NCBI RefSeq assembly: GCF_964340395.1
Contig: NC_135557.1
Coordinates: 24,433,875 to 24,497,874, forward strand
Reading direction: 5' to 3'
Length of the DNA stretch: 64,000 nt
DNA from: Glandiceps talaboti
Lineage: Eukaryota > Hemichordata > Enteropneusta > Spengelidae
The translations under genes and the position numbers were made by a program. A model generated the notes under the pieces. The model was not told the origin of the DNA, did not search any database, and saw only the letters and a list, made by a program, of their open reading frames with translations. Shown piece after piece: positions 5,701-45,835 of this stretch. How positions within the stretch are numbered: the stretch's first letter is position 1; each line of letters opens with the position of its first letter.

Positions 5701-8700
5701 GGCACTTGACGGTACATTGGTTGGTGCAGTTGTCTTGGTAGTAACGGTACTTGACGGTACATTGGTTGGTGCAGTTGTCTTGGTAGTAACGGTACTTGAC
5801 GGTATATTGGTTGGCGCAGTTGTCTTGGTAGTAACGGTACTTGACGGTATATTGGTTGGCGCAGTTGTCTTGGTGGTAACGGCACTTGACGGTACATTGG
5901 TTGGTGCAGTTGTCTTGGTAGTAACGGCAATTGACGGTACATTGGTTGGCGCAGCTGTCTTGGTAGTAATGACACTTGACGGTACATTGGTTGGCGCAGT
6001 TGTCTTGGTAGTAACGACACTTGACGGTACATTGGTTGGCGCAGTTGTCTTGGTAGTAACGGCACTTGACGGTATATTGGTTGGCGCAGTTGTCTTGGTA
6101 GTAACGGCACTTGACGGTACATTGGTTGGCGCAGTTGTCTTGGTAGTAACGACACTTGAGGGTACATTGGTTGGCGCAGTTGTCTTGGTAGTAACGGCAC
6201 TTGACGGTACATTGGTTGGCGCAGTTGTCTTGGTAGTAACGGCACTTGACGGTACATTGGTTGGCGCAGTTGTCTTGGTAGTAACGGCACTAGATGGTAC
6301 ATTGGTTGGCGCAGTTGTCTTGGTAGTAACGGCACTTGACGGTATATTGGTTGGCGCAGTTGTCTTGGTAGTAGCGGCACTTGACGGTACATTGGTTGGT
6401 GCAGTTGTCTTGGTAGTAACGGTACTTGACGGTATATTGGTTGGCGCAGTTGTCTTGGTAGTAACGGTACTTGACGGTACATTGGTTGGCGCAGTTGTCT
6501 TGGTAGTAACGGCACTTGACGGTATACTGGTTGGCGCAGTTGTGTTGGTAGTAACGGCACTTGACGGTATATTGGTTGGCGCAGTTGTCTTGGTAGTAAC
6601 GACACTTGACGGTATACTGGTTGGCGCAGTTGTCTTGGTTGTAACGACACTTGACGGTACATTGGTTGGCGCAGTTGTCTTGGTAGTAACGGCACTTGAC
6701 GGTACATTGGTTGGTGCAGTTGTCTTGGTAGTAACGGCACTTGATGGTACATTGGTTGGTGCAGTTGTCTTGGTAGTAACGGTACTTGACGGTACATTGG
6801 TTGGTGCAGTTGTCTTGGTAGTAACGGTACTTGACGGTATATTGGTTGGCGCAGTTGTCTTGGTAGTAACGGTACTTGACGGTATATTGGTTGGCGCAGT
6901 TGTCTTGGTGGTAACGGCACTTGACGGTACATTGGTTGGTGCAGTTGTCTTGGTAGTAACGGCAATTGACGGTACATTGGTTGGCGCAGCTGTCTTGGTA
7001 GTAATGACACTTGACGGTACATTGGTTGGCGCAGTTGTCTTGGTAGTAACGACACTTGACGGTACATTGGTTGGCGCAGTTGTCTTGGTAGTAACGGCAC
7101 TTGACGGTATATTGGTTGGCGCAGTTGTCTTGGTAGTAACGGCACTTGACGGTACATTGGTTGGCGCAGTTGTCTTGGTAGTAACGACACTTGAGGGTAC
7201 ATTGGTTGGCGCAGTTGTCTTGGTAGTAACGGCACTTGACGGTACATTGGTTGGCGCAGTTGTCTTGGTAGTAACGGCACTTGACGGTACATTGGTTGGC
7301 GCAGTTGTCTTGGTAGTAACGGCACTAGATGGTACATTGGTTGGCGCAGTTGTCTTGGTAGTAACGGCACTTGACGGTATATTGGTTGGCGCAGTTGTCT
7401 TGGTAGTAGCGGCACTTGACGGTACATTGGTTGGTGCAGTTGTCTTGGTAGTAACGGTACTTGACGGTATATTGGTTGGCGCAGTTGTCTTGGTAGTAAC
7501 GGTACTTGACGGTACATTGGTTGGCGCAGTTGTCTTGGTAGTAACGGCACTTGACGGTATACTGGTTGGCGCAGTTGTGTTGGTAGTAACGGCACTTGAC
7601 GGTATATTGGTTGGCGCAGTTGTCTTGGTAGTAACGACACTTGACGGTATACTGGTTGGCGCAGTTGTCTTGGTTGTAACGACACTTGACGGTACATTGG
7701 TTGGCGCAGTTGTCTTGGTAGTAACGGCACTTGACGGTACATTGGTTGGTGCAGTTGTCTTGGTAGTAACGGCACTTGATGGTACATTGGTTGGTGCAGT
7801 TGTCTTGGTAGTAACGACACTTGACGGTATATTGGTTGGCGCAGTTGTCTTGGTAGTAACGGCACTTGACGGTACATTGGTTGGCGCAGTTGTCTTGGTA
7901 GTAACGGCACTTGACGGTACATTGGTTGGCGCAGTTGTCTTGGTAGTAACGGCACTTGACGGTACATTGGTTGGCGCAGTTGTCTTGGTAGTAACGACAC
8001 TTGACGGTACATTGGTTGGCGCAGTTGTCTTGGTAGTAACGACACTTGACGGTACATTGGTTGGCGCAGTTGTCTTGGTAGTAACGGCACTTGACGGTAC
8101 ATTGGTTGGTGCAGTTGTCTTGGTAGTAGCGGCACTTGACGGTACATTGGTTGGTGCAGTTGTCTTGGTAGTAACGGCACTTGACGGTATATTGGTTGGC
8201 GCAGTTGTCTTGGTAGTAACGGCACTTGACGGTATATTGGTTGGCGCAGTTGTCTTGGTAGTAACGGCACTTGACGGTATATTGGTTGGCGCAGTTGTCT
8301 TGGTGGTAACGGCACTTGACGGTACATTGGTTGGCGCAGTTCTCTTGTTAGTAACGGCACTTGACGGTACATTGGTTGGCGCAGTTGTCTTGGTAGTAAC
8401 GACACTTGACGGTATATTGGTTGGCGCAGTTGTCTTGGTGGTAACGGCACTTGACGGTACATTGGTTGGCGCAGTTCTCTTGTTAGTAACGGCACTTGAC
8501 GGTACATTGGTTGGCGCAGTTGTCTTGGTAGTAACGACACTTGACGGTATATTGGTTGGCGCAGTTGTCTTGGTAGTAACGGCACTTGACGGTTCATTGG
8601 TTGGCGCAGTTGTCTTGGTTGTAACGACACTTGACGGTACATTGGTTGGCGCAGTTCTCTTGTTAGTAACGGCACTTGACGGTATATTGGTTGGCGCAGT

Positions 8701-10039
8701 TGTCTTGGTAGTAACGGCACTTGACGGTATATTGGTTTGCGCAGTTGTCTTGGTAGTAACGGCACTTGACGGTTCATTGGTTGGCGCAGTTGTCTTGGTA
8801 GTAACGGCACTTGACGGTACATTGGTTGGCGCAGTTCTCTTGTTAGTAACGGCACTTGACGGTACATTGGTTGGTGCAGTTGTCTTGGTAGTAACGGCAC
8901 TTGACGGTATATTGGTTTGCGCAGTTGTCTTGGTAGTAACGGCACTTGACGGTATATTGGTTTGCGCAGAAAGTGCAGGTATACCACTTGTCATTATAGT
9001 CACGCTGTTGTTTTCTAACGCTAGCGAATTGTTAATTTCTCCAGGCAATGGATCTGAAGATGAGATAATATGTCAATGTTAGTGTTGTCATCCTATTGCA
9101 TGGGATCTAGTGGTAATACGTCAACTTTGTGTTATAATGTTCTATAGATTTACTTCACTTTAACTTCATCTATTGGTGTTGTCGTTAACACTATTGCAAC
9201 TGGTGATTGTGATAATAATACATGGTTTATTAAAACAAAATTGTGACCAAAATAAAATGGTCAAATGGTTTGAGTTCACATATCAGTAAATTAAGCATGT
9301 TGAGAAACAAAATAAATTGATGAATAAAACAAGTCCTAAAAAGTTGAAACAGTCTAACAAAATACAAAATACAATGGTAATTAACTAGAGTTCTTGTCGA
9401 CAGTGTACGATTTAGACCGTTGTTAATTGAAACTGTACAAATGCATGTTATCATAACACAAGGCTAAAAAACGTTTAAATTTGAAAACTGTTGCCAAATG
9501 TTGGATGCTCCACGATCAAAATATAATTATTACGTATTACATATAAAGTGTATATAGAAGCAAAACAATTTGCAGCAGTGGCGTTTTCCTTTAATGAAGA
9601 CAATGTATTGGAAGTAGATTTACCATAAAGAGTATAACTCAAAAAACTATTACTTTTAACTACATTCAAACAACTCCTATAGTGAGAACAGATTATAAAA
9701 CACACTTATATATTCATATCTATTTTGGTCAAAACTTAGTTCGAGTGGTGACTACTGGTTCAGTCTAATTGTAAACTATATATTCACATTTGTTTGGGTC
9801 ATAACTAACACCGGTCGATGAACATACTAATTGTTCAATAAACTTGGTATGGAATTTAAAACAATGTTACTACGTTACAAAGTCTACTTAGCACTTTCTG
9901 TATTCGAGACTTGCGATCAATAGAATTCCTTCGACTTACCAGGTTTTTGATCATCTAGGTTCTGTGCATTTATTAGAATGGTCAAAGCAGCCAGGAAATA
10001 CCCCGAGTAGCGAAAAAGTGTCACCATTTTCAGTTCCAT
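268..10039 (-). CDS. Adhesion-GPCR-like receptor with giant mucin-like stalk (5' part, gene runs off left edge)
   Basis: Eight coding exons on the minus strand, all GT-AG and in phase: 9940-10039, 5295-9053, 3988-4062, 3219-3329, 2307-2401, 1594-1779, 1160-1228, 268-388. Exon 1 starts at ATG 10039 and encodes a 33-aa piece with a hydrophobic signal peptide (FLAALTILINA). Exon 2 (about 1250 aa) is a Thr/Ser/Pro-rich 15-residue repeat, probably an O-glycosylated extracellular stalk. Exon 3 is a short Cys-rich module. Exons 4-5 read as a hormone-receptor (HRM) domain, with CPFG, a Trp, PPCPG, RGC and EDGKW in the family order. Exons 6-8 read as GAIN subdomain A (LHGGDLLLSLDILE, then NRLLEW..DW, then ILKALEDF). 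The GPS and 7TM parts would lie left of base 1. Exons 1-4 end in phase 1, as in shuffled extracellular modules. Family placement rests on HRM plus GAIN order by eye; the 7TM part is not visible. Confidence 0.78.
2040..2095. repeat. (TG)n microsatellite
   Basis: Pure TG run flanked by degenerate GTGT/GCGC sequence, in the intron between receptor exons 5 and 6. The open frames across it are low-complexity artefacts. Confidence 0.95.
2630..2721. repeat. (CAGA)n followed by (CA)n microsatellite
   Basis: Compound microsatellite in a receptor intron: about eight CAGA units run straight into about 30 CA units. Confidence 0.95.
3411..3585. repeat. (GAGT)n/(GGGT)n/(GAGC)n compound microsatellite
   Basis: A tetranucleotide array changes from GAGT to GGGT to GAGC along its length, suggesting successive point change and re-expansion. 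It lies in the intron between receptor exons 3 and 4. Confidence 0.93.
4425..4500 (-). mobile_element. Probable non-LTR retrotransposon 3' tail
   Basis: Read on the minus strand, an AT-rich stretch ends in about five ATTCA units (GAATT repeats on plus). LINE and SINE 3' ends of the CR1/L2 kind often finish in such short tandem repeats. Only the tail is visible and no reverse transcriptase frame was found. Confidence 0.35.
5300..8980 (-). repeat. 45-bp coding minisatellite, about 81 copies
   Basis: Uninterrupted 45-bp tandem repeat inside receptor exon 2, encoding variants of APTNVPSSAVTTKTT. Variation is confined to a few positions (NVP/NIP, SSAV/SSVV/SSTV/SSAA, KTT/KRT/NTT). Because 45 is a multiple of three and the unit lacks stops in three of the six frames, long open frames also appear on plus and in a second minus frame. 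Only the minus frame joined in phase to the signal-peptide exon fits a protein. Thr and Ser density is that of mucin-like stalks. Confidence 0.97.
5740..7810 (-). repeat. 1035-bp higher-order tandem duplication (23 x 45 bp) within the mucin-like exon
   Basis: The rare variant unit with 'ggcaattgacgg' followed by 'gcagctgtc' occurs at about 5926 and again at 6961, exactly 1035 bp apart. Flanking variant units (tactgg variants, gtgttggta, ttgagggta, actagatgg) recur in the same order at the same offset. The match breaks at about 6781 versus 7816. The compared stretches look nearly identical, so the duplication is recent. Confidence 0.9.
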
Positions 10040-14399: not shown

Positions 14400-17054
<2,655 letters not shown>

Positions 17055-17417
17055 AACAGCTACATACCTGTATCACCACAGAAACAAGACATTGGACATC
17101 CAAGATGAAACAGTATTACAAATATCAGAGCTATATCACCATGGAGACAAGATATTAGACATCCAATATGAAACAGATACAGACCGCATCACCATGGAAA
17201 CAAGATATAATAGGACATCGAAGATAAATCAGTATTACAGTAACTATGGAAGTCTCACTAGCTGTAACTAACTATACTATGGAACATTTTTGAACAACTT
17301 TCGTTTTTATTTTGGACATGTTTATATGGTTGTATTCGCTAATGCATATATAATTACTTAGACGACAAGTCTGATCGACGTGTACTACATTTTTTAACCA
17401 GTACACACAACATATTT

Positions 17418-27515: not shown

Positions 27516-29817
27516 TTACACAATTTCATATTTATCAACAAGAAATGCTACATCTGTGGAGTATTTGACTGGGGCACTGTCATCTACTAATTTCACATCA
27601 GTTACCTGCAAGACAAAACAAAGGTCAAGGTTAAGGTCACACACAAATCAAAGACATTTCAATACCAATGATTCAATTTCATGTTGGCATTAGTCCTGTC
27701 TTTATCAGTGGAACCATCCTTTTGTTCTAGCCAAAGATTTTTCAACAGCTTTGCTAGAAAATCTTTGTCTTATTCAGATTTTAATTCTACTCTGCCACAG
27801 GCTTGTAAGACTTCACAGTTCTGCTGCATTTGCATGTAAGATGGTAAATGATAATGGTCTTACTACTTTAGTCGGGGATTAAGATTTTGGTGTGAATCAT
27901 AGTTGTCTGACAAAGCTTTAGAAAAAGTATGTCCAGAACAACAGAATAATCTTATCAATCCTCATGATCCCGCTAATAAGTTAATGTGAATGGAAGAACC
28001 TGGGATTGAAACCCTGGCCGTTAAGTGGATTTTTCCTCTCATTATTACATATATTTATCCCAAACAACAAATTTCTGTTAAAATGACACAATGCACTTTT
28101 GTGTCCTCATTTGCATGGAGGTATCCGATACAATAATGCTTTTGGTAGTGGTATTTGCACTACTATGCATACACACTGGTGCAAGTAATCTCTGGTTACT
28201 CTGTAGTATTTCTAACTAACCAGACAAAAACAACATACCTCTAAGTCACAGTATGATTTCCTTGACAAGAAGTTGACAGTGACTGGAAAGAAATCGTTGG
28301 GATGACCACCTATACTGAATTCTAGACTTCCTGTTTTATTGCTGGCATCGATAACTGGTAGGGTCCATTCTAAGATAGCATGGCGATTATCATGGTGGTA
28401 GTTGCCATCAATTTCACCAATAACCGGCGCTCCAACACCAGCTCTATAAACAATTAATATCAAACAGCATAAGCTAACTACATTCAAGGAAACATCATTT
28501 TTTGTCGTATACTGGTTGATATACTACTATGGCACCTGAGGTCTAAGTTCACTAAGACGGACACAAATATTGTTGTGCAGACATACATGTGATCAATCTG
28601 TAATCACAATAATGTAAACACTGGCAGTCACCAAAATAAACACCACGAGATCCTGAAAGTCATAAATAATGCCACTCTACTAGAAATCACTAGAAATTGT
28701 GTGTCAGTTGCACATCAAATTGGCTTAGAGGACACACTGGTCACCACATAGTAAGAGATAGGGGAACACCAAATTTTGGTGCGTCACTAGAAATTGTGTG
28801 CGTCAGTGGTGCGTCAAATTGGCTTAGAGGACACACTGGTTACCACATAGTAAGAGATAGGGGAACACCAAATTTTGGTGCATCACTAGAAATTGTGTGC
28901 GTCAAATTGGCTTAGAGGGCACACTGACTGAGTATAATTAATCCAACTTCCATCTTACATCAACATGTCACAACAATAGTTACAATTCGTAAAGCTTGTT
29001 TTTCACCTGTTGAAAAGGTTTGCAGAGTGCAGAGTGAATGGGCAGTGTGTCATCTAAGCCAATATTATGCGTCACTGACACACAGCAATGTTAGCCACCA
29101 ATATATCGTCTATTCCTATCCCTTACTATATGGTTACTCATTAGAAATGACTGTGTATCAGTGACATGTCAAAGTAGTTTGGTGGGCTATAAAAGAACTT
29201 GTCAGAGACCATAGCATACCATAGCATACCATAGCATAGTATGTATTTTAAGCTCCCCAGGGAGTTGAGGAAGTAGCCAAAAAGAAATTGCACGTGTACA
29301 CTACATCTGATTTCAATCAGATGGGTTCAATAGTATAAGGTCGAGTCTACACTACAATATGGAAGTGCACCCTAAATAAGTGTCTAAATTTGACATGCAT
29401 GGTTTTGATAGTATTGCATAAGATACAAATACACAGTCTGCATTTGTCATATGAGTGTTTGCTAATCTACACCTACTATCAATTGCAAGAGACATACAAA
29501 AATGCTAAAAGAGTGTACATGATGAAAAAAAAAAAGGATTGTTATATGAACTTAGGCAATGCCTACGCTACTATAGGAAAATGTACCCATATACATTAAC
29601 CTGCTAGACCTACCACACTATCCCATATAAAGTATATGTAGTATCAACATGCTATTCATTCTGTATTTTCATGTTATGTTACAGTTTTATTCCTAAATTT
29701 GAGTAAGTTGTCAAATGTCTATGCATGCTAGTCGTGTGTACATGTCATGTGAGTGTGCATGTATGTATGTATGTATGTATGTATGTATGTATGTATGTAT
29801 GTATGTATGTATGTATA

Positions 29818-29850
<33 letters not shown>

Positions 29851-32800
29851 ATGTATGTATGTATGTATGTATGTATGTATGTATGTATGTATAGTATAGT
29901 ATCACATTGTATACTTACCTTTGCCTGATGTTACAGGCAATAGAAAAGAAGAAATAAAAGAAATCAAATATTTATTCTAAATATTGTCATTTTAAACTAC
30001 AGCTAGAAAGTATGTTTACTGGATAGAATATAATTCTTATCCTAATAATCACCACTGTAGCTATTGACAATACAAGTCACTAATATATAAATAACCTTTT
30101 ATTTAGAAACATAAATGATGAAAAATACCGGTACTTCAAAATTCCAGACCATGTCCTTTTATGAAAACAAACTATATCATTTTGCAGGTCTAAGCCAAAA
30201 CTGGCTGATTATTGTAGAATACTGAGAGCCCTTAATAGGTATAACTGAATTCTACTTGTCATAAAAATTTTAACTTCTGTGGCTTCAAAATACTGAGCTA
30301 ATACTAATGGATACACCTTGCAATTCTAAGTACAAAATGTACTAAGGTGCAATGAATACTTACGGTAATGGAATACTAATGGCTACATCTTGCAATTCTA
30401 AGAAAAAAATGTACTATGGTGCAGTGAATACTTACGGTAATGGAATACTAATGGATACATCTTGCAATTCTAAGAAAAAAATGTACTAAGGTGCAGTGAA
30501 TACTTACGGTAATGGAATACTAATGGATACATCTTGCAATTCTAAGTCTTCTTGTTCTAATGTATACTCAATATTGACATCACAACCACCATCATTATTT
30601 TCAGAAGGCCAACAGTTGACTGAAATAAATGAATTAGAGGTTAGTCAGACGTACTGTGACAGAACCCCATGACATGTGAGACTGCAAGTGTGGTGTACTC
30701 AGGTATTTGCATGAGTGCTTGCAGTGTTCTCTGTGAACGTGTAGCAGAAAACACTGCAAGCACAAATGCAAATACCCCCTGTGTACCCACACTGGCACTC
30801 ACGTGGCATGAGAGTTATACTATTATTACTTATGTTTATCCAAAACAACAAATTTCCATAACAATGACGCTATGCATCTACACGCTTTTGTGCAGAATGA
30901 ATGATCGCATCCTCATTTGCATGCAGGTATGCAATAACGCTTTCAGTATTGCACTGTAGTGCAAATACCACTAGTATGTGCACACATCGTTGCAAGTAAT
31001 CTTTTGTACATAATGTAATACTGTATAGCATTCATACCTCTGTCTAACACAGATAATCACTAGATAGAGGCAATAAGCTTTCATTCTGTGTTATATACAG
31101 AGTATCTTCCCGTCCTTACACCCCTCCCCCTCCAACCAGGCTTCACACCTCTGTCTAACATAGATACTTACTAGAGAGAGGCATTAAGCTTCCATCGCGT
31201 GTTACATATCCTCCCATTCTTAACACCCTTCCCCTCCAACCAGGGTTCACACCTCTGTTTTAACAGATACATGTACTTACTAGATAGAGGCATTAAGCTT
31301 CCATCACATGTTACACATCCCCCCATTCTTACCACCCCCCTCCCCCTCCAACCAGGCTTCACACCTCTGTCTAAAACAGATACTTACTAGATAGAGGCAT
31401 TAAGCTTCCATCGCGTGTTACACATCCCCCCATCCTTAACACCCCCCTCCCCCTCCAACCATAGAGTTCATACCTCTGTCTAACACAGATACTTACTAGA
31501 TAGAGGTATTAAGCTTCCATCGCATGTTACACATCCCCCCATTCTTACCCCCCCCCCCCTCCAACCATAGAGTTCATACCTCTGTCTAAAACAGATACTT
31601 ACTAGATAGAGGCATTAAACTTTCATCCTGTGTTTGAAGTCTCCATTTAAGGACACCGACATCATTGTTAAGTGGGAATGGTTTGGCAGAATTCTTCATA
31701 CCAATACATGACTGAGATGCAAACAGTTTTTTATCAACATTGGGATGTGTCTGAAACAAAATACCATTTCATAATTATATATGTGTATTCTTAACAGACA
31801 GGACTGAGACACTAGTAGGAAATTTGCATATTGAAACTTTCATCAGTTTCTATGGTTTGCTGGGAACCATACACATAGGTTGGAATTTAACAACTCAACA
31901 GGTTCCTAGTCTGGCTACTAGGCCCCTCAGGCTAATGTGTTTACTGTAAAGGCGACCAAAGGTCGCTACAGATGGCACTAGCCTGAGAGGTATTCGTTAC
32001 CTGAGAGCTTTATTCAGCAATGCTAAAGCAATGATCCAAGGCCTTATTACAAGACTAGGAGGTTCCCAGATACACATTACAACTCAATCACCTTTCTGAC
32101 TGGGTTTACATATGGCTAGATCAGTGCCAATACATGATCAGCAAGGTGTTACTACCATGCTAGCATTAACAGTAACACCTAACTTGCATGCGTTGCCTAC
32201 TCAACGAGAAAATGCCTCCACTATCCTAATGCAATACAGATGATAACATCAGGCTGGCACTCATTTTATGCAGACTACCAATTCTTGTCATGGGACTACC
32301 ATAATTTGCAGCTGATAGACAAGTCAGGCTACCACTGATTATGCGATGATTTAAGAATGCAAGATTTACAGACATAAAAGTATTTTAATAAAACACATAT
32401 TTCCAATAGCGGAACTCTGTTTACAGTTCAGGAATATGTGACTACAGGTCACCATCCCTGGGCCACCACTTTCTGAAAATGGTAGCCTATTATGACTACC
32501 AACCAAGTTTAATTTCAAGCCCTGATATGGAATGCTTTGATAGAACCTACCTGAAGTTGTACTCCTTTCCTATCACCGTTAGTAATGCCTATCCTGACTT
32601 TACCATAGGTTTCATCTGTTATTCTTAGTAATGCCAGACCATGTATCTCCATACCTTGTAAACCACCATCACGTCCTGCTGTTAGTGTGATCTTTTCTTC
32701 TACCCTGACATGTACACTGTAAATAGTCAAATGTACACTGTAACAGTGAGTATGTGATTTTATATTTTCTCTGTAAGACTACCTTCTACCCTGACATGTA

Positions 32801-35800
32801 CACTGTAAATAGTCAAATGTACACTGTGAGTATGTGATTTTATATTTTCTTTGTAAGACTACCTTCTACCCTGACATGTACACTGTAAATAGTCAAATGT
32901 ACACTGTGAGTATGTGATTTTATATTTTCTTTGTAAGACTACCTTCTACCCTGACATGTACACTGTAAATAGTCAAATGTACACTGTGAGTATGTGATTT
33001 TATATTTGCTCTGTAAGACTACCTTCTACCCTCACCTGTACACTGTAAATATGTACACTGTGAGTATGTGATTTTATATTTTCTCTGTAAGACTACCTTC
33101 TACCCTGACATGTACACTGTGAGTATGTGATTTTATATTTTCTCTGTAAGACTACCTTCTACCCTCACCTGTACACTGTAAATATGCAGGGTTCTCCACA
33201 ATTTAGAAAAATACAGGGGCGCCCTAATTTGCATATTTATTTGCATATCATTAGCATATTTCCAGATCATAATATTAGGAAGTGAAAAAAGTTTCCAAAA
33301 TCAAAAACTCCTATTTTATTCATTCAGCAAACTAAAATGTACTGAAATGTATTGTAATCACCAATTTCCAAACCTTTCACATAATTCACAATGTAAAAAT
33401 TTCAGGAAGGAGGTTGACAGTTAAGTTACACAAACGATGTTATAGTAATGTTGGCAAGCATGTTTTACACACAGGAGTGACAACACATGGCATTGTTGAT
33501 GTACATGTATGCACCTCTAGGCTAGCTATCACTTAGTTTTGAGTTGTTGGTTTCACCTTGTAAATGTGCATGTCATTCATAAAAATTAATTGAAAACAAT
33601 TCATTTTCCTTTATTTCTCTAAAATTTGATATCCTTTTAATTTTCATGAATGGAAAATGATTTTTCATCCAAATTTGCCGGAAATACGTACATTTTTAAT
33701 GTGACGAATTTGGGCTAAGAATAACCGAATACGTTCAGTGCAAATGTACAGTAACAAACATGGCTGCCACATCGGAGCTACCTCGTGGTACTACGATCGC
33801 GATTCACATCCAAACGTGATCATTTAGGACATAAATTTTACCATGGAACCGTACCGGAGTAGTTATTTCTAAAGAACATGTATAAATTTTAGGATTTTGT
33901 TCGTATTTATCGATACAATACGAAAATTGCCGTGACATCGTACATCGTATGCGTACTGTATTACGTATACGGGAAGGCTTGGAAATTACCGGCTTGATAT
34001 ACCCGGCCATAGAAACTACCAACGTACCGTCTTCTACTTTACGACGGTACTACATTTACTGTTTTTGTTTCGGCTACCATTGTTATAAACAAGGCGATAA
34101 ATAAGTTCATAAATGATGATAGACGCAGTGTCGCTGTTCACTTCCTTCATTAACGGCATTGAATAGAATCTCTTGAAGACGTTCACACCAAAACAAAGGG
34201 GCGCTGAACGCAAACAGAGGGGCGGTTCTGTAAACAGAGGGGCGGTCCATGAAAACAGAGGGGCGGTGCGCCCCTCAAAAACCCCTCGTGGAGAACACTG
34301 ATATGTACACTGTCAGTATGTGATTTTATATTTTCTCTGTAAGACTACCTTCTACCCTGACATGTACACTGTAAATAGTCATATTTTATGACACTTTTCC
34401 AAAGTATAATGTCAAATTTCCTCTTAATTACTCACTGTGTATACATATATCTATGTGAATACAAGACCAGCCACACTGAGACTCTCTGAGACTATTAAAT
34501 TTAACTCAACAAAGAATTTGGTCCCATTTCTGACCAATGCCTCATAAAGTGAAATGTTGAAGTATTATTCTAAGAAGAATATAATGTTTTGTAGTGGACG
34601 GCAGTTTTTTGTGTCGGCTATTTTCTATGAATACTGGATGGGGGCCGTCCACTGCCGACCACCATGAGGCGGTCCATGTGTGGGTAATAGCCCAAATATA
34701 CATACTATAAATGAGTGTAGCACATAGAGAAAGTGCTTTACTTCAATGTTACTGGTTGTACCAGAAGCATAGAATCTAGGTGACATAAAATCTTACCTTT
34801 CCATGTTACTGACTGGTGTGGTTGCATAGAATCTAGGTGACATGAAATCTTACCTTTCCATGTTACTGACTGGTGTGGTTGTTTTCACTACATTGGCTGA
34901 CTGTCTTGATTTATTTGGACTAATCACATCTTCACCCTCAGTTCGAAGTTTGTCAACAAAGCTGTCAACGTCTTTATTCTTGCTGCCTAGTTTCATAGCT
35001 CTACCTGATCCAACGTTTCTTAAAAAATGAAAATATCACTTATTAGACAGTAGGGGACATGCAAATCCTTCATGAAACATTTCTTTCAAAATGGAAAAAG
35101 CAATTATTAGACAATATGATACAGGTAGGTCCTTTTATACAATACTAAGATGTACCACATGGTGATATTCAGGATAAACACTTTGTTTTCTATTTTTGTT
35201 AATTGACTTTTTTTATTACATTCCAGAACAGACTGACACATGTAATCATGCCAATGTATCAGACAAGAACCTTCATTATAAAATAAAGCTTCTAACATTA
35301 ATTAGTTTGGTTGTCTAATAAAAATTTATGACACATTTTTGGGTGAAAACACACACATTTGAGCATTTTAACAAATGCATAGCCCTGCTTACTGGCGGTG
35401 CACGAGTCTATATTGCTGACATCAGAATCGTGTCCCGGATTACTCTGTATGCAAGCAGGACTAATAAATGCACAGCATAACATTACATTTTAATTCCTTT
35501 TCTCCCAGCTTGTTCTCTTTATTTTTTAAACTTGTGCTTAGTTGTGTACAGAGATATATCCCTGACAGAGAAAGAGGATTAATTTTTGACTACTTGTTAA
35601 CACTGGGTTGGCACTAACACTTTACCAACATGTAAGCATTAGTACCCACCCCATACAAATCTCTCAACTATGACTTCATGTAGTTCAGCTAATCTGCTGG
35701 CAAGATTTCTGAGGTGTAATGTCATAATATGTGAGTTTACAGAATTAATTATAAATTTTAATTCTAAAAAACGTTTCTTACTTAATAGGTGCTGGTGTTG

Positions 35801-38800
35801 GTTTAGATACTTCTGACACTCCAGCACTATCTCCAACAATAGGAGTCATATCTGAACCCTTTGAAGTGCTACCAAAGCCTGTATACCCAGTTGGCCTTAT
35901 TCTTCCCATCTTTTCTGCCTCTCTGCGTTGCTGTTGAAGTTCTCTGGCCTTTCTTTTCATTTCTGCCTTTGCCTCTCTTTCTTGAGTCTGTTAGTAATAA
36001 TACAAGAAGAACAAATTTCACACAAACCTTCGTAGGAGACACTGTCGCCGTTCAAATGCATTACTTCTATGTGACTGATTTACAAGAAATTGGTGCATGG
36101 CAACAAACTTACTACAAAGTATCCATTCTATGAAAGAAATGGCTACATTTTGATAAGTGACCCTGGATATCAAAGCAAGGTCAAAGGTCAATGTCTTAAA
36201 AGAAATTTGCATATGCCACAAAATAAAGTGATGTCCATATGTCACCTTTGTGCCAGGTTTGAAAGAAATTGGGATATTGCATGTCTGAGAAATGAGGTAT
36301 TACAGATGAACGGATGGACACATGCATGCACACATGCTGCTGTACTACTGCAGTGCAAAAACTAATACTAGTAATAATAGTATTTACATGCACAGCGGGG
36401 CAATTAATCACAGGTTTTTATGTAATTACATATGTATTGCACATTTCACTTGCATAAATCCCAGAATGCACTTATTTGTCAACATGCCTTCTGAGTTTTA
36501 AATTTGGCAACTAGCATCATATTCTATTTCAGGTACTAAGAATTAATTGTAATGATGGTGCCAATTGAGGTTATTCTCAGTACCCGCAATAGAACTTTAC
36601 CTCATGCTAGAGGGTAACAAGAAGGTTGACTTATTCTCAAATTGAATGTTCGTTATTTTTATAATGCAGTAGGCAGTAATATTCTATTTCAGGCACCGAG
36701 AATTAAATATATTGATGGTGCCAACTGAGGTAGAAAAGCAGCTTTTTAAATAATCCCTGACCTATTACAACTGAATGACGAACACAAAATATTAATATAT
36801 ATATACGTGTATATCCATGCACCCAGCCTGTAACTTAAGAGATGTTTTGCTGTTCTGCCTTCATTGGCCTTGTGGCTGATATGGTAGCATGGCAAGTCTT
36901 ATGGCAATTATACTACATATTGAATGCATTCCATAAAAAATATGATTGTTTACATACTGCCGTTTCCTACATCACAACAATTCGGAGATATATCTATATA
37001 ATTCCATATTATATACCTGCATTCAGTTAGCAAATACTTGTGACCTAAGGGTTTTGTTACTACTATGTCTGACTGCTAGGGAATAATATCTACTTGTACA
37101 CAAACCTGTCTGACTGCAAGGGAATAATATCTACTTGTACACAAACCTGTCTGACTGCTAGGAAATAATATCTACTTATACACCAACCTGTCTGACTGCT
37201 AGGAAATAATATCTACTTATACACCAACCTGTCTGACTGCTAGGTAATAACATCTACTTATACACCCACCTGTCTGACTGCTAGGTAATAACATCTACTT
37301 ATACACCAACCTGTCTGACTGCTAGGGAGTAATATCTACTTATACACCCACCTGTTTGACTGCTAGGAAATAATATCTACTTATACACCCACCTGTCTGA
37401 CTGCTAGGTAATAATATCTACTTATACACCCACCTGTCTGACTGCTAAGGAATAATATCTACTTATACACCCACCTGTCTGACTGCTAAGGAATAATATC
37501 TACTTATACACCCACCTGTCTGACTGCTAGGTAATAATATCTACTTATACACCCACCTGTCTGACTGCTAAGGAATAATATCTACTTATACACCCACCTG
37601 TCTGACTGCTAGGAAATAATATCTACTTATACACCAACCTGTCCGACTGCAAGGGAATAATATCTACTTATACACCCACCTGTCTGACTGCTAGGTAATA
37701 ATACCTACTTATACACCAACCTGTCTGACTGCTAGGTAATAACATCTACTTATACACCAATCTGTCTGACTGCTAAGGAATAATATCTACTTATACACCC
37801 ACCTGTCTGACTGCTTGGAAAACCTTTTCTTCATGAGAGTCCATTTCTGTAAATGTTCTGATTTGGGCTAAATTGACATTCTCTCTGTATCCAAGGGCAA
37901 CAATTTCATCGAAGGCAAAGATGAGTTCAAAGGAATGGTCAAGGATCTCAGTTTCATCTATCACTCGGCAGTACTCTGGAATCTGTAAATAATACAAATA
38001 CATACTGTTATAGGTCAAATGCTGGGTCATAGGTCAATGATTGAATCCTGGGTCATAGGTCAATAATTAAATCCTGGGTCATAGGTCAACGATTAAATCC
38101 TGGGTCATAGGTCAATGTTTCAATCCTGGGTCATAGGTCAATGTTTCAATCCTGGGTCATAGATCAATGTTTCAATTGCTTGAGTTTCCCCTAACATATT
38201 CTTTTGTGATTCCCTAATTCCCTAAACAATAGCTGCTGAACATGTCAAGCAACATAATCAAATATTTCAAAAGATTGAATATTACAGATGACCATAATAT
38301 TAAGAATTTCTATTCTGTCATGTGACATATCTACCTGATACATGTATCTCCAGACATATCCTGGGCACCCCATCACAGGGTTCTCCCAAGCTATAGAGTA
38401 GTCCCGGATACTAATTAATATTCATGCTAATTTGCATAATTAATATTCATGAATAAATTAATGGTACACTCAAAGTACATGGTGTATGATCAAAGTTGCT
38501 AACAAAAAAGTTAAAACCAACTTTTCTTTCTCTACAGATTTATAACTCTAATCTCAATCTTTGCACATCGATTTTTTTCAATCACAGTTTTTGATTAATT
38601 TTCTCAGAAAAGCTAAAGTTGTTTCAATCAAACTAAATATCCAAAGACGACTGCAGTTTCAAAACTCTAAAAAGTTGCGTATACCCACACATACGCATTG
38701 AGTTTAGACGAAATCTCGTGATACATGAGACATCGCGATAATTTGTGACGTCACCACCCACCATTTTGGAAATTACATGTTTTCATCGTCGTGCTATGTA

Positions 38801-41786
38801 CGATGTCAAACTACCAACTAAAAGTGTTTTCAGAGTAAAATTGAACAGAAAACTAATGATCGGACACAACGTCAACACTTTATAAAAGGTATATGAGGCT
38901 GTTATACTTTTTTTACGACGCTGAAGAATGCTAGTCGAAAGTCTGCAGCATCGTGTATGCCCTGTAATTCACACGTACTCACTGTACACGAGATATCAAT
39001 GTATAGCGTCAGCTGTTGTCAGTTCACACTTTGTCTTTATAAATAGTCGAGTATTTGTCATTACTGGTCGTCTACATTGTTCGTTTCTCAAAGACATTTT
39101 AATACTTCATTATCTTTTAAATCAATGCGTCCATGTGGGCAGAAAATGAAAGTACAATTATTAAAGTGAGTGTGTGTGGGGTGTCGAATGGTAACCAATT
39201 GTGACACTTGAAGGTGGTGGACGGTGACTTTGAGTAGTGGTCGCCAAGACTGAGTCCCGGACGCTAGCGTCCGGTGCCGTCCAGCGTGAGGAGATCCCTG
39301 CATCAAAATTATCATTATAAAATATATGTCAATCACGGCTAATTCTACAAACTTTCCTTCTTCTGCTTCTTGTATTTCTATAACCTTTGCAAAGATTTAG
39401 TATATTAAATTGGATATGCCCAGATTATATTTATCGTCAATTGTTAAATGTTTGTATAGGGGTTGGACTAGATTAGTTGCAAGACAACTATTTTCATTCC
39501 ACCTTTCCTTTTAGCTATTGATATACATATTTATCTCGACTAGTAAATGCATTTGTAATTTGTAACCATATATTTTTGGAAAATTATTATTATTATTATT
39601 ATTATTATATTAAAATACTGGCAAATATTGACTACATTTGTAAATGTATAACATTACACTTACCACTCTAGAAAATAACCTCAGTGTTTTTAAATCCACT
39701 GGCAAATATTGACTACATTTGTAAATATATAATACTTACCACTCTAGAAAATAACCTCAGTGTTTCTAAATCCTCCAAGATATTACTGGCCTTTGTTGTG
39801 ATCAATAACATATATAATTTCTCTATAGGTTGGTACACGTATCTGACACTCTCTGTCTCAACAAATGTGTGTTGTTTACCGGTATTCATCAGTTTGGGGA
39901 AAGCAGCCAGTAAACCCTCTACACGGGATCTCGACATCTCAACAAATTGTCGGGACAAGATTGGCTTGCCCGACTTGGTGCAGATGGCCGATGCTAACAA
40001 CACCTGAAGGAACAAATGAAGGAAATGGTAATGTAATTATAACAATGGTAACTGACTTGCATTATTTTTTTTATTTTTTTTGTCAACATTCATTTGTATA
40101 CTTGATAGTAAATAAAGAACTGAAACACCTTTCATAAAAAGACAACACTACAAACCATTAACTTGAATGAAAGATTGGTGTAATAATCAGGGGTGAACAA
40201 ATCCACTGGTCCTGGGTCTGGGACTAGCTATTTTTTATGGCAGACAACACAAATTCTACCTTGTACCACTAATTCTTTCAGCAGGACCACTGGATTTTTT
40301 AAGGCACTGGTCTGGGGACCACCAGTTCACAAAATGATTTGTTCACCCCTGACTGTATAATCGTCCTAAATATTGGGATACACTCATCAAGTCTGGGTAA
40401 AGATTATAATACATTGTAATAGCTTACTTGCAGCTCTTAATGCATCAAAATAAAGATTATATGTATGTCACGCTTTTTTCATTGCTTAGTACATGTATAT
40501 ACATTTGTGCTTCTCAAATAAAACAAATTATTAACATCTCATTTCAATTATTTGGAAGTTAAAACTTCTGACTTCAAACTCTGTTATTTCTGCAAAGCAC
40601 TTAGGAATTGTTTTCCTGGTGTAATGGAACATGGTAACACTGAAGTAAAGCACTTTCTCTATGTGCTACACTCGTTTATAGCATTCACATCAAGTGCAAA
40701 TGTATACTGTTTCAATTTACAAACACAGCATGTGGCCTTTCTAATGTGGTCAATTAGCAAATGAAACAGTATACTTCTACACTTGATATGGGTGCTATAC
40801 ATGTAAACAATTGTGGTATATACAGAAAATGCTTTACTTTGGTGTTATGGGTTGTACATGTAGCATTCCTTTGGTTTTATGTATGGCAGCACAGTAGAAC
40901 TTAAATACCATTACAATGTACAAATTCTTACTGTGCTTAAAGGAAAAAAACACTGATCAGATGCATTGTAAAAATTTGGTTGCATCTAGCATGATACAAT
41001 GTACATATATGTAGGATTCTGTTTAGGAAGTTTATGTGATTTGACACTCAATCTTACATTTATCCATCAACAACCACAAATGTGAGAGAATGGTTATCTT
41101 TTTTCTTAAATTATAAACATTTTGATGATGTGCATCTGAGTCTGTATTTCAAGAAACTTCATCAATTTCATATTCATTGAATGGAATATTTATCACTGAG
41201 AAAATGTGTAAATACAAGTTATTTTAAGGACAGTAAGTTATCACTGGACAGCAAAATTGATATCTTTTGGCGAGTATTATTGATGTTTTCATTTGTAATA
41301 TGATTCGTGATTTATCAACTCAAAGAGATTAAAATGCGTCGTTCTTTCGTAATTTTTCCAATGGTACATCTATTCCTTCGTACGATTTGGTTTCAAACTA
41401 CACTGTACTTTTTTGTGTAGATGTGTCGACACTATGCATAGGATTTATACAGAATCATGTGCACTTGACAGAAAAATATGCTTCCGTATTTTATGCCAAT
41501 ATTTTCTATCATTTATAATTCCGTTGGTCCCTAATGTGGGTAATTTTGTCAAATATGTTTGTTAAGGTTGACAAGAAGAAACATCTTAATGTTCTGATGG
41601 TCGACAGTCGAACAAATCACAGTAAAATATTGAAAATGCTTTACTACGATGTCTTTCTTAGGAGGTCGCCATTTTGACTTCTGAGAAGTCAGATGTGATG
41701 GGGCGCGTTCTCCGCGATCACCTTGGCCAGGTCTCGGAAATACCTACTTATCGCTCTTTGCCACAGAGAGGGGGTTTACTTACCAT
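27516..41786 (-). CDS. ARCN1: Coatomer subunit delta (delta-COP, archain), 512 aa, complete
   Basis: Ten coding exons, minus strand: 41784-41786 (ATG only), 39740-40003, 37803-37982, 35782-35987, 34854-35018, 32551-32716, 31603-31750, 30508-30619, 28239-28443, 27516-27605. All introns are GT-AG, phases agree, and the sum is 1539 nt ending in TAA. Delta-COP is a subunit of the COPI coat that drives Golgi-to-ER retrograde transport; it is related to adaptin mu chains. Near-identity to animal delta-COP is plain: [20 protein letters not shown] and [13 protein letters not shown] in the N-terminal longin-like part, [20 protein letters not shown] after it, a basic linker ([18 protein letters not shown]), and a C-terminal mu-homology domain with [23 protein letters not shown] and the terminal FLVDKYEIV. 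Length matches the human protein (511). Five introns carry tandem copies of their own exon boundary. Confidence 0.98.
28040..28200 (+). mobile_element. Dispersed repeat, copy A (paired with 30825-31010)
   Basis: Shares the order 'tttatcc.aaacaacaaattt', 'cctcatttgcatg', 'tagtg' and 'tgcaagtaatct' with the copy in intron 8. Probably a small non-autonomous element; class unresolved. Confidence 0.5.
28685..29190. repeat. 98-bp tandem repeat with inverted partial copies
   Basis: 'ttggcttagaggacacactg' and the linked 'cacatagtaagagatagggg' repeat at a 98-bp period (28693, 28791, partial at 28889). Reverse-complement versions appear at about 29045-29090 and 29110-29170, so the block can fold back. 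It may be a foldback-type element in intron 8 of ARCN1. Confidence 0.6.
29757..29893. repeat. (GTAT)n microsatellite
   Basis: Long GTAT array with a short central GT run, in ARCN1 intron 8. Confidence 0.96.
30295..30545 (-). repeat. ARCN1: 70-bp array copying the 3' end and donor of ARCN1 exon 8
   Basis: The exon 8 end (about 38 nt, ending TTACC|GTAAGT) recurs at 30429 and 30359 with the donor intact. A further copy near 30300 lacks the donor. Period is about 70 bp. Confidence 0.9.
30668..30810. repeat. Long imperfect palindrome, 66-bp arms
   Basis: 30668-30733 is the reverse complement of 30745-30810 with scattered mismatches (about 80 percent by eye). The loop is 11 nt. Core phrases 'ggtatttgcat' and 'gtgcttgcagtgtt' match fully. 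Confidence 0.8.
30825..31010 (+). mobile_element. Dispersed repeat, copy B (paired with 28040-28200)
   Basis: Follows the palindrome directly and matches copy A in order and orientation, so palindrome plus repeat may be one element of which copy A is a truncated relative. Confidence 0.5.
31040..31628 (-). repeat. ARCN1: About 108-bp array copying the 3' end and donor of ARCN1 exon 7
   Basis: The last about 27 nt of exon 7 plus donor (CTATCTA|GTAAGTATC) recur near 31495, 31385, 31275 and 31165, with a weaker copy near 31060. Copies are separated by C-rich 'cccctccccctccaacca' spacer. Confidence 0.9.
32690..34395 (-). repeat. ARCN1: About 80-bp array copying the acceptor and 5' end of ARCN1 exon 6, split by a transposon
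   Basis: The acceptor ATTTACAG and the first about 20 nt of exon 6 recur about seven more times upstream in the intron (about 32720-33186 and 34306-34390). In each extra copy the exon piece ends in AAG|GTAGTC, so it carries both an acceptor and a donor-like site. The array is interrupted at 33187-34300 by an inserted element. Confidence 0.9.
33187..34300. mobile_element. 1114-bp non-autonomous inverted-repeat DNA transposon, 5-bp target duplication
   Basis: Ends CAGGGTTCTCCAC and GTGGAGAACACTG form 13-bp terminal inverted repeats with one mismatch. It is flanked by ATATG on both sides (33182-33186 and 34301-34305). Neighbouring array copies show the empty site 'gtaaatatgtacactg', proving the insertion. 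It carries CpG-rich internal sequence and three short 'aaacagaggggcggt' units near its right end. No transposase frame is visible. CAGNG ends suggest the hAT group; a 5-bp duplication would fit only some hAT lineages, so the superfamily is open. Confidence 0.85.
34590..34675. repeat. Short GC-rich hairpin in ARCN1 intron 5
   Basis: AGTGGACGG near 34594 pairs with CCGTCCACT near 34650, and 'gtcggc' pairs with 'gccgac' around it. It resembles the 'ggtggacggtgact' stretch near the right end of the element at 38376-39300, so it may be a remnant of that family. Confidence 0.4.
34769..34880 (-). repeat. ARCN1: 57-bp duplication of the 3' end and donor of ARCN1 exon 5
   Basis: Exon 5's last about 28 nt and donor (GGAAAG|GTAAGA at 34854) are repeated once, 57 bp into the intron, with one base change nearby. 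Confidence 0.9.
36040..36360. mobile_element. Degraded interspersed repeat fragment
   Basis: Contains 'gtgaccctggatatcaaagc', 'aaggtcaaaggtcaatgtc' and ends in 'gatgaacggatggacacatg'. Such phrases recur as dispersed repeats in marine invertebrate genomes. Classification from motif style only. Confidence 0.35.
36515..36745. repeat. Diverged about 60-bp direct duplication
   Basis: 'tattctatttcagg' followed by 'gagaattaa' and 'gatggtgccaa.tgaggt' occurs at about 36518 and again at about 36680, in ARCN1 intron 3. Confidence 0.65.
37045..37820 (-). repeat. ARCN1: 41-bp minisatellite (19 copies) nucleated on the 3' end and donor of ARCN1 exon 3
   Basis: The unit holds the last about 14 nt of exon 3 (GCAGTCAGACAG) and the donor GTGGGTG or GTTGGTG. 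Eighteen intronic copies lie beyond the exon copy ending at 37803. Nearly all keep the CAG|GT junction, so the intron begins with a ladder of decoy donors. Confidence 0.95.
38015..38175. repeat. About 28-bp minisatellite, 5-6 copies
   Basis: 'cctgggtcataggtcaat' repeats just upstream of the ARCN1 exon 3 acceptor. Unlike the other arrays it does not include exon sequence. Confidence 0.85.
38376..39300. mobile_element. 925-bp non-autonomous inverted-repeat DNA transposon, 5-bp target duplication
   Basis: Begins CAGGGTTCTCC and ends GGAGATCCCTG (one mismatch when paired), flanked by CATCA on both sides (38371-38375, 39301-39305). Ends and target length match the element at 33187-34300, so both belong to one family or close relatives. 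The interior includes a CpG-rich stretch (about 38690-39010) and a palindromic GGACGCTAGCGTCC. No transposase frame. Confidence 0.8.
39588..39608. repeat. (ATT)n microsatellite
   Basis: Short ATT run in ARCN1 intron 2, close to the duplicated exon 2 end. Confidence 0.9.
39620..39781 (-). repeat. ARCN1: 81-bp duplication of the 3' end and donor of ARCN1 exon 2
   Basis: Exon 2's last about 37 nt plus GTAAGT (true donor after 39740) are repeated 81 bp into the intron. Use of the second donor would add sequence with an in-frame TAG, so the first must be used for a full protein. Confidence 0.9.
40188..40351. mobile_element. 164-bp MITE with 16-bp terminal inverted repeats
   Basis: CAGGGGTGAACAAATC at 40188 is the exact reverse complement of GATTTGTTCACCCCTG ending at 40351. 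The interior is largely self-complementary. CAGGGG ends suit hAT-type MITEs. Flanks are similar (tgtaataat / tgtataat) but not a clean duplication. Located in ARCN1 intron 1. Confidence 0.75.
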
Positions 41787-43345: not shown

Positions 43346-45835
43346 CTCCTCTCAGATCTACATACACCATCAGTCCATACCCCACCCTCTAAGATCTACA
43401 TACACCATCAGCTGATACCCCACCCTCTCAGATCTACATACACCATCAGCTGATATCCCTCACTCGTATCTACATATATACACCATCAGCTGATACCCCA
43501 CCCTCTCAGATCTACATACACCATCAGCTGATACCCCTCACTCATATCTAGATATATACACCAACTGGTATCCCACCCTCTAAGATCTACATACACCATC
43601 AGCTGATACCCCACCCTCTAAGATCTACATACACCATCAGCTGATACCCCACCCTCTAAGATCTACATACACCATCAGCTGATACCCCACCCTCTAAGAT
43701 CTACATACACCATCAGCTGATACCCCACCCTCTAAGATCTACATACACCATCAGCTGATATCCCACCCTCAGATCTACATACACCATCAGCTGATATCCA
43801 ACCCTCTTAGATCTACATACACCATCAGCTGATATCCCACCCTCTTAGATCTACATACACTATCAACTGATATCCCACCCTCTTAGATCTACATACACCA
43901 TCAGCTGATATCCCACCCTCTTAGATCTACATACACCATCAGCTGATATCCCACCTCTCAGATCTACATACACCATCAGCTGATACCCCACCCTCTACGA
44001 TCTACATACACCACCAGCTGATATCCCACCCTCTCAGATCTACATACACCATCAACTGATATCCCACCCTCTCAGATCTACATACACCATCAGCTGATAC
44101 CCCACCCTCTACGATCTACATACACCACCAGCTGATATCCCACCCTCTTAGATCTACATACACCATCAGCTGATATCCCACCCTCTACGATCTACATACA
44201 CCATCAGCTGATACCCCACCCTCTCAGATCTACATACACCACCAGCTGATATCCCACCCTCTTAGATCTACATACACCATCAGCTGATATCCCACCTCTC
44301 AGATCTACATACACCATCAGCTGATACCCCACCCTCAGATCAACATACACCATCAACTGATACCCCACCCTCAGATCTACATACACCATCAACTGATACC
44401 CCACCCTCAGATCTACATACACCATCAACTGATACCCCACCCTCTAAGATCTACATACACCATCAACTGATACCCCACCCTCAGATCTACATACACCATC
44501 AACTGATACCCCACCCTCAGATCTACATACACCATCAACTGATACCCCACCCTCAGATCTACATACACCATCAACTGATACCCCACCCTCTCAGATCTAC
44601 ATACACCATCAACTGATATCCCACCCTCTCAGATCTACATACACTATCAGCTGATATCCCACCCTCTAAGATCTACATACACCATCAGCTGATATCCCAC
44701 CCTCTAAGATCTACATACACCATCAACTGATACCCCACCCTCAGATCTACATACACCATCAACTGATACCCCACCCTCAGATCTACATACACCATCAACT
44801 GATACCCCACCCTCTCAGATCTACATACACCATCAACTGATATCCCACCCTCTCAGATCTACATACACTATCAGCTGATATCCCACCCTCTAAGATCTAC
44901 ATACACCATCAGCTGATATCCCACCCTCTAAGATCTACATACACCATCAACTGATACCCCACCCTCAGATCTACATACACCATCAGCTGATATCCCACCC
45001 TCTAAGATCTACATACACCATCAACTGATATCCCACCCTCTCAGATCTACATACACCATCAGCTGATACCCCACCCTCTACGATCTACATACACTATCAA
45101 CTGATATCCCACCCTCTCAGATCTACATACACTATCAGCTGATATCCCACCCTCTAAGATCTACATACACCATCAACTGATATCCCACCCTCTCAGATCT
45201 ACATACACTATCAGCTGATACCCCACCCTCTACGATCTACATACACCATCAACTGATATCCCACCCTCTACGATCTACATACACTATCAACTGATATCCC
45301 ACCCTCTCAGATCTACATACACTATCAGCTGATACCCCACCCTCTACGATCTACATACACCATCAACTGATATCCCACCCTCTCAGATCTACATACACTA
45401 TCAGCTGATATCCCACCCTCTAAGATCTACATACACCATCAGCTGATATCCCACCCTAAGATCTACATACACCATCAACTGATACCCCACCCTCAGATCT
45501 ACATACACCATCAGCTGATATCCCACCCTCTAAGATCTACATACACCATCAACTGATATCCCAACCTCTAAGATCTACATACACCATCAACTGATACCCC
45601 ACCCTCAGATCTACATACACTATCAACTGATATCCCACCCTCTCAGATCTACATACACTATCAGCTGATACCCCACCCTCTACGATCTACATACACCATC
45701 AACTGATATCCCACCCTCTCAGATCTACATACACTATCAGCTGATATCCCACCCTCTAAGATCTACATACACCATCAGCTGATATCCCACCCTCTAAGAT
45801 CTACATACACCATCAACTGATACCCCACCCTCAGA
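43346..45835. repeat. 37-bp satellite block, about 68 copies
   Basis: Units of 33-38 bp with 'agatctacatacaccatcag' then 'ctgatatcccaccctct'. Variants (cagctgat/caactgat, accatc/actatc, tcagatc/taagatc/tacgatc) recur in ordered groups, showing higher-order copying. Non-coding, between RPLP1 and ARCN1. Confidence 0.95.

Follow-up and report, generated by a model that had tools for sequence, protein, structure and literature searches.

Six of the 18 splice junctions of the ARCN1 gene in the hemichordate Glandiceps talaboti are copied in tandem into the adjoining intron, while the coding frame is kept by the copy nearest each exon. The observation is real and striking in this one gene, and it is of a known kind. 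The genes that we sampled outside ARCN1 give no support to an above-chance seeding of introns by junctions, although that sample is small (2/82 junctions; 95% interval 0.3–8.5%). We consider it probable that the arrays reflect ordinary tandem duplication that hits junctions at chance level, is tolerated as splicing uses the outermost copy, and lengthens the introns.

The ARCN1 gene and its junction arrays

The window analyzed here is a 64,000-nucleotide stretch (C10:24433875-24497874) of the 590 Mb assembly, in 47 contigs, of G. talaboti, an enteropneust. It contains a complete ARCN1 (delta-COP) gene on the minus strand, with a coding span of 27516..41786. The introns have GT/AG boundaries, and joining the following 10 exons gives one open frame of 512 aa.

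41784-41786, minus strand, ARCN1 exon 1
39740-40003, minus strand, ARCN1 exon 2
37803-37982, minus strand, ARCN1 exon 3
35782-35987, minus strand, ARCN1 exon 4
34854-35018, minus strand, ARCN1 exon 5
32551-32716, minus strand, ARCN1 exon 6
31603-31750, minus strand, ARCN1 exon 7
30508-30619, minus strand, ARCN1 exon 8
28239-28443, minus strand, ARCN1 exon 9
27516-27605, minus strand, ARCN1 exon 10

The translation is 100% identical over 100% of its length to P0001, annotated by NCBI as coatomer subunit delta-like [Glandiceps talaboti], and matches PDB chain 5a1u_H (coatomer subunit delta) with an E value of 2.8e-238. The next-best relative is from Saccoglossus (82% identity, full length), and a Ptychodera isoform shows 83% identity across 83% of the query.

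Each of the 18 junctions was represented by a 28-nt window centered on it, which was compared with the gene span plus 200 bp per side. Tandem copies extending into the intron are found at six junctions, with 79–100% identity over the 28 nt. They occupy introns 2, 3, 5 (at both ends), 7 and 8, or 5/9 introns, confirming the donors of exons 2, 3, 5, 7 and 8 and the acceptor of exon 6 that were named in the initial annotation of this DNA. The other 12 junctions have no copy at ≥72% over 28 nt in the same search space. The arrays, and an insertion within one of them, are as follows.

39617..39773, minus strand, exon 2 donor, 2 copies; offset 76 bp, 34 nt exonic, the decoy retaining GTAAGT like the used site
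37066..37815, minus strand, exon 3 donor array; 41-bp unit, 18 splice-site copies and one partial, 12–19 nt exonic
34767..34881, minus strand, exon 5 donor, 2 copies; 57-bp unit, 28 nt exonic
32697..33186, minus strand, exon 6 acceptor array; used copy and 6 upstream decoys, spacings 59–86 bp, 20 nt exonic, AG in all
34301..34380, minus strand, exon 6 acceptor, displaced eighth copy; junction of the copy at 34368, edges set by eye
33187..34300, no strand assigned, insertion in the exon 6 acceptor array; 1114 bp, terminal inverted repeats CAGGGTTCTCCAC / CAGTGTTCTCCAC (12/13), flanking ATATG duplication
31031..31634, minus strand, exon 7 donor array; 6 copies, spacings 106–111 bp, 25–32 nt exonic
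30300..30546, minus strand, exon 8 donor array; 72-bp unit, 3 donor copies and a partial fourth, 39 nt exonic

The copy numbers first proposed (2, 19, 2, about 6, 4 and about 8) hold for the exon 2, 5 and 7 donors (2, 2 and 6) and the exon 6 acceptor (8), but the exon 3 and exon 8 arrays have 18 and 3; the extra copy counted earlier in each is, by eye, a partial one without a splice site. Similarly, the exonic stretch carried by each copy, put at 14–38 nt, spans a slightly wider 12–39 nt. In total the junction-anchored arrays make up 2278 of the 12732 intronic bp of ARCN1 (17.9%), which bears out the proposal that existing introns have been extended. An origin of the arrays in the insertion of a dispersed satellite was considered and rejected, as the units hold ARCN1's own exon sequence.

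The 1114-bp insertion, which from its termini is likely a DNA transposon, parts the eighth exon 6 acceptor copy from the rest of its array, so that this copy is 1652 nt away from the used junction. Since the insertion splits the array, the array is probably the older of the two and the insertion the younger. A second insertion, at ~38376-39302 in intron 2, has ends like those of the one in intron 5 (CAGGG...), and the two are likely related DNA transposons.

Among the 17 inner copies of the exon 3 array, similarity is 96.5% in the exonic 13 nt, 92.0% in the intronic remainder and 85.5% in the donor hexamer. No part of these inner copies would be expected to be under constraint, and plain neutral decay does not predict that the exonic part should be the most alike.

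Three further tandem repeats lie elsewhere in the window. At 17012-17205 a 54-bp array (3.4 copies) starts just within the final coding segment of a TPR-protein gene, crosses the stop codon (17052-17054) and extends into the 3' region. Similarity of this protein to its Ptychodera relative P0121 stops at 16997, ahead of the array, and its C-terminal tail may derive from the repeat. A 45-bp unit is repeated ~81 times at 5248-9072 and is open in more than one frame as well as on both strands, one minus-strand frame giving a Thr/Ser/Pro-rich, mucin-like stretch. Finally, a 38-bp unit is present in ~66 copies at 43348-45832, upstream of ARCN1.

Predicted consequences of the inner copies for splicing

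The splice dinucleotide is retained in 32/33 decoys, with GT in 25/26 donors (16/17 in the exon 3 array) and AG in 7/7 acceptors. A truncated protein is predicted from every one of these 33 inner sites (26/26 donors and 7/7 acceptors). Together with the identity to the NCBI protein, this supports, at the level of the gene model, the earlier statement that the frame stays intact because only the outermost copy is used. The assignment of outermost copies rests on that annotated protein, that is, on annotation rather than RNA, and the inner copies are presumably left unspliced.

When donor strength is scored with a consensus matrix, the used donor is equalled or surpassed by 17 of the 26 decoy donors, nine of them in intron 3. 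Site strength alone therefore cannot explain the choice of the outermost copy, which is likely picked by its proximity to the exon (exon definition). In the exon 8 array, both decoy units in intron 8 also hold an acceptor-like site, and each unit could in principle be a candidate 34-nt pseudo-exon.

Chance tests within ARCN1

The initial annotation held that random duplication should rarely include exon sequence so often in one gene. We evaluated this with two null models, and all P values for ARCN1 are uncorrected for the selection of the gene because of its pattern. In the founder null, each array is treated as one founding duplication placed randomly among tolerable positions. Nine ARCN1 arrays with units of ≥20 bp were counted, leaving out 4-bp and 10-bp arrays and nested rows; one of the nine (34190-34267) lies inside the inserted element. 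Six of the nine cross a junction against 0.76 expected (P = 1.7e-5).

The coverage null asks how often a junction falls in locally repeated DNA, here at an 82% identity threshold and with 17 junctions tested. Local repeats take in 19.3% of intronic positions and 6/17 junctions. Circular shifts give a mean of 3.1 junctions, with six or more in 760 of 14231 shifts (5.3%), and random positions give 7.4%. By repeat coverage, then, the excess is marginal (0.05–0.07), though this null is conservative because much of the repeated DNA consists of the junction arrays themselves. With genes numbering in the tens of thousands, a single gene like ARCN1 would be no great surprise. The claim of rarity is thus upheld by the founder count and left marginal by the coverage test, in a gene that was picked for its pattern.

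Junctions outside ARCN1

For comparison we assembled junctions from eight CCT-family genes (L027-L034) and from genes with homology support in a 200-kb block chosen arbitrarily, C1:10.0-10.2 Mb (L003-L022). In the CCT control, 46 of 57 matches were used, giving 38 neighboring pairs, of which 24 were modeled (48 junctions, with 2/24 pairs scoring below -11 and probably wrong, and a few more weak) and 14 were left out. The 11 matches set aside belong to two intron-poor copies (3), a gene on C26 (6) and C13:16.53 Mb (two). The 34 junctions of the C1 block, several of them weak, were positioned with a splice-site score. An open frame of 2 kb running across the CCT introns was rejected, as the one locus checked (L033) has no closed open frame >111 aa.

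A local junction copy at ≥75% identity is present at 2/82 junctions, one of 48 in the CCT genes and one of 34 in the C1 block, against an intronic background of 2.0% (n = 4800) and 8.7% (n = 3000), respectively; the kinase-like exon behind the C1-block hit entered the sample partly because its array drew attention, which favors hits. At the 82% threshold, the count is 1/82, with backgrounds of 1.25% and 7.5%. By arrays, 2/14 cross a junction against 0.85 expected (P = 0.21), the 14 having been hand-listed from TRF rows with units of ≥15 bp and overlapping rows counted once. In this small sample a junction preference is not shown, and the claim that junctions are unusually frequent targets as a rule is not supported. 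ARCN1 differs from the sample both by junctions (6/18 vs 2/82; Fisher P = 0.0003) and by crossing arrays (6/9 vs 2/14; Fisher P = 0.023). It is also two to four times richer in arrays, with 0.71 per kb of intron compared to 0.18 in the CCT genes and 0.34 in the C1-block genes.

The two outside cases stand up on inspection, and both are donor arrays of the same structure as in ARCN1. In a CCT-family gene on C13 (L031, ~8149-8392, reverse complement), three copies of the exon end and donor are spaced by 86 and 85 bp, and their exonic parts align without gaps over 47 and 62 nt. In a kinase-like gene (L007 483-910; C1:10040483-10040910), the donor ...GGCAAGG|GTGAGT is repeated in six copies of a 68-bp unit. 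The following exon begins GACAATTCGG, and splicing from the outermost copy would give GKGQFGRVV, which we take to be the glycine-rich loop of protein kinases. One exon of the tandem paralogue of this gene is 96% identical to the matching exon, and the paralogue exon matches the Pfam tyrosine-kinase family.

Other arrays of the C1 block (71379, 105572, 170753 and others) were dropped as junction arrays, since by eye their flanks could be tied to none of the homology-supported exons, which are a minority of the exons in that block. In the window itself, a few junctions in three other genes were checked by eye, outside all counts, and none is crossed by an array; a neighboring gene there is one that we take to be RPLP1-like.

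Origin of the arrays

From these data we infer the mutational steps of array growth as follows. A short tandem duplication would by chance span an exon-intron junction, and slippage or unequal exchange would then multiply the unit into the intron. The spliceosome would stay with the exon-proximal copy, that is, the 5'-most donor or the 3'-most acceptor, and the duplication would survive because this copy is still used and the mRNA is unchanged. The intron would thus grow and fill with unused splice sites while the mRNA remained unaltered. Junctions would be struck roughly in proportion to chance, and ARCN1 would have many junction arrays because its introns are array-rich and the gene was noticed for its pattern. 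The notion that splicing hides junction duplications fits the intact frame obtained with the outermost copies and the truncation predicted from inner ones; the part of it that would have junctions seeded above chance is not supported by the outside genes.

A different possibility is that tandem duplications arise preferentially at transcribed exon-intron borders, for example through RNA-DNA hybrids or splicing-linked breaks. The founder excess in ARCN1 points this way, as do the predominance of donors (five of its six junction arrays) and the recurrence at donors in the CCT and kinase-like genes. The marginal coverage test and the outside counts, which by junctions are near the intronic background or under it and by arrays do not significantly exceed the expectation, lead us to regard such targeting as unlikely. 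The same holds for its broader form, for which we see little probability, namely that borders are favored in the genomes of certain deuterostomes (lancelets and acorn worms), seeding intron growth and pseudo-exon ladders, with ARCN1 the visible extreme of a genome-wide process.

Selection might instead keep the copies, with extra donors, acceptors or pseudo-exon units tuning the splicing or expression of ARCN1. The nearly universal retention of the splice dinucleotide among decoys would agree with this, and so would the exon 8 units, in which 34 nt are flanked by an acceptor-like site on one side and a donor on the other. The exon 3 array, the one measured, cuts both ways: its exonic part is more conserved than the rest, but its donor hexamer is the least conserved part. 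With truncation predicted from all inner sites, and with copy numbers (2 to 18) and units that vary between junctions, we judge selection to be quite improbable. An artefact of assembly, in which tandem junction copies would be imitated by repeats that were collapsed or expanded or by the joining of haplotypes, deserves mention, as tandem arrays are a usual site of assembly error; moreover, the lengths of C10 (26,682,613 bp) and of the longest contig listed with P0001 (26,684,518 bp) are 1.9 kb apart. Yet the assembly places its 590 Mb in 47 contigs, the copies vary in substitutions and spacing, an insertion has displaced one of them, and junction copies occur at three unrelated loci, all of which makes an artefact highly improbable. 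Chance-level duplication tolerated by splicing is the reading that we prefer.

Relation to known systems

Junction-copy arrays are already in print as the "mirage" minisatellites of amphioxus, a closer precedent than the AGGT-based intron gain to which the initial annotation pointed. Mirages are described as tandem copies of exon-intron boundaries, at donors or at acceptors, many of the copies retaining splice signals, in Adh3 and the globin genes BflGb6 and BflGb9 (PMC3087553); PGBD5 is added and TnC named in a second report (PMC3902484). The Adh3 data and globin RT-PCR are reported to suggest that mirages leave splicing undisturbed (PMC3087553). By their sequence features the ARCN1 arrays are of the mirage type: as in amphioxus, the boundary is copied in tandem (here at 6/18 junctions) and splice signals persist in many copies (25/26 GT, 7/7 AG), and the coding sequence is intact by way of the exon-proximal copy (512 aa, 100% identical to the NCBI protein). 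They differ in occurring in a hemichordate rather than a cephalochordate, in affecting six junctions of one gene with up to 18 copies, and in being known from the sequence of one assembly. No hemichordate mirage appears among the matches listed in the literature searched, which covered few subscription papers, and as far as these searches reach, a mirage in a hemichordate is new.

A 1995 study, reportedly of human IFI6 / 6-16, describes by its title a minisatellite with multiple splice donor sites. There, as in ARCN1, donor sites are carried in a tandem repeat, but the title has the extra donors offered to the transcript, whereas the ARCN1 model uses the outermost only. Where introns are gained through tandem genomic duplication of AGGT segments, a short duplication likewise makes or copies splice signals, and the new intron arises within an exon (PMC3443670), while in ARCN1 existing introns are lengthened.

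Implications

These results carry mirages beyond lancelets, into a hemichordate and three unrelated genes. Mirages thereby come to resemble a general side effect of genomes rich in minisatellites and not a peculiarity of lancelets. For one gene, they provide a measured case of introns lengthened from their own edges, to the extent of 17.9% of intron length. Finally, ARCN1 is a natural setting in which to examine how splicing passes over as many as 17 downstream donor-like sites, nine of which, in intron 3, equal or surpass the true donor in score.
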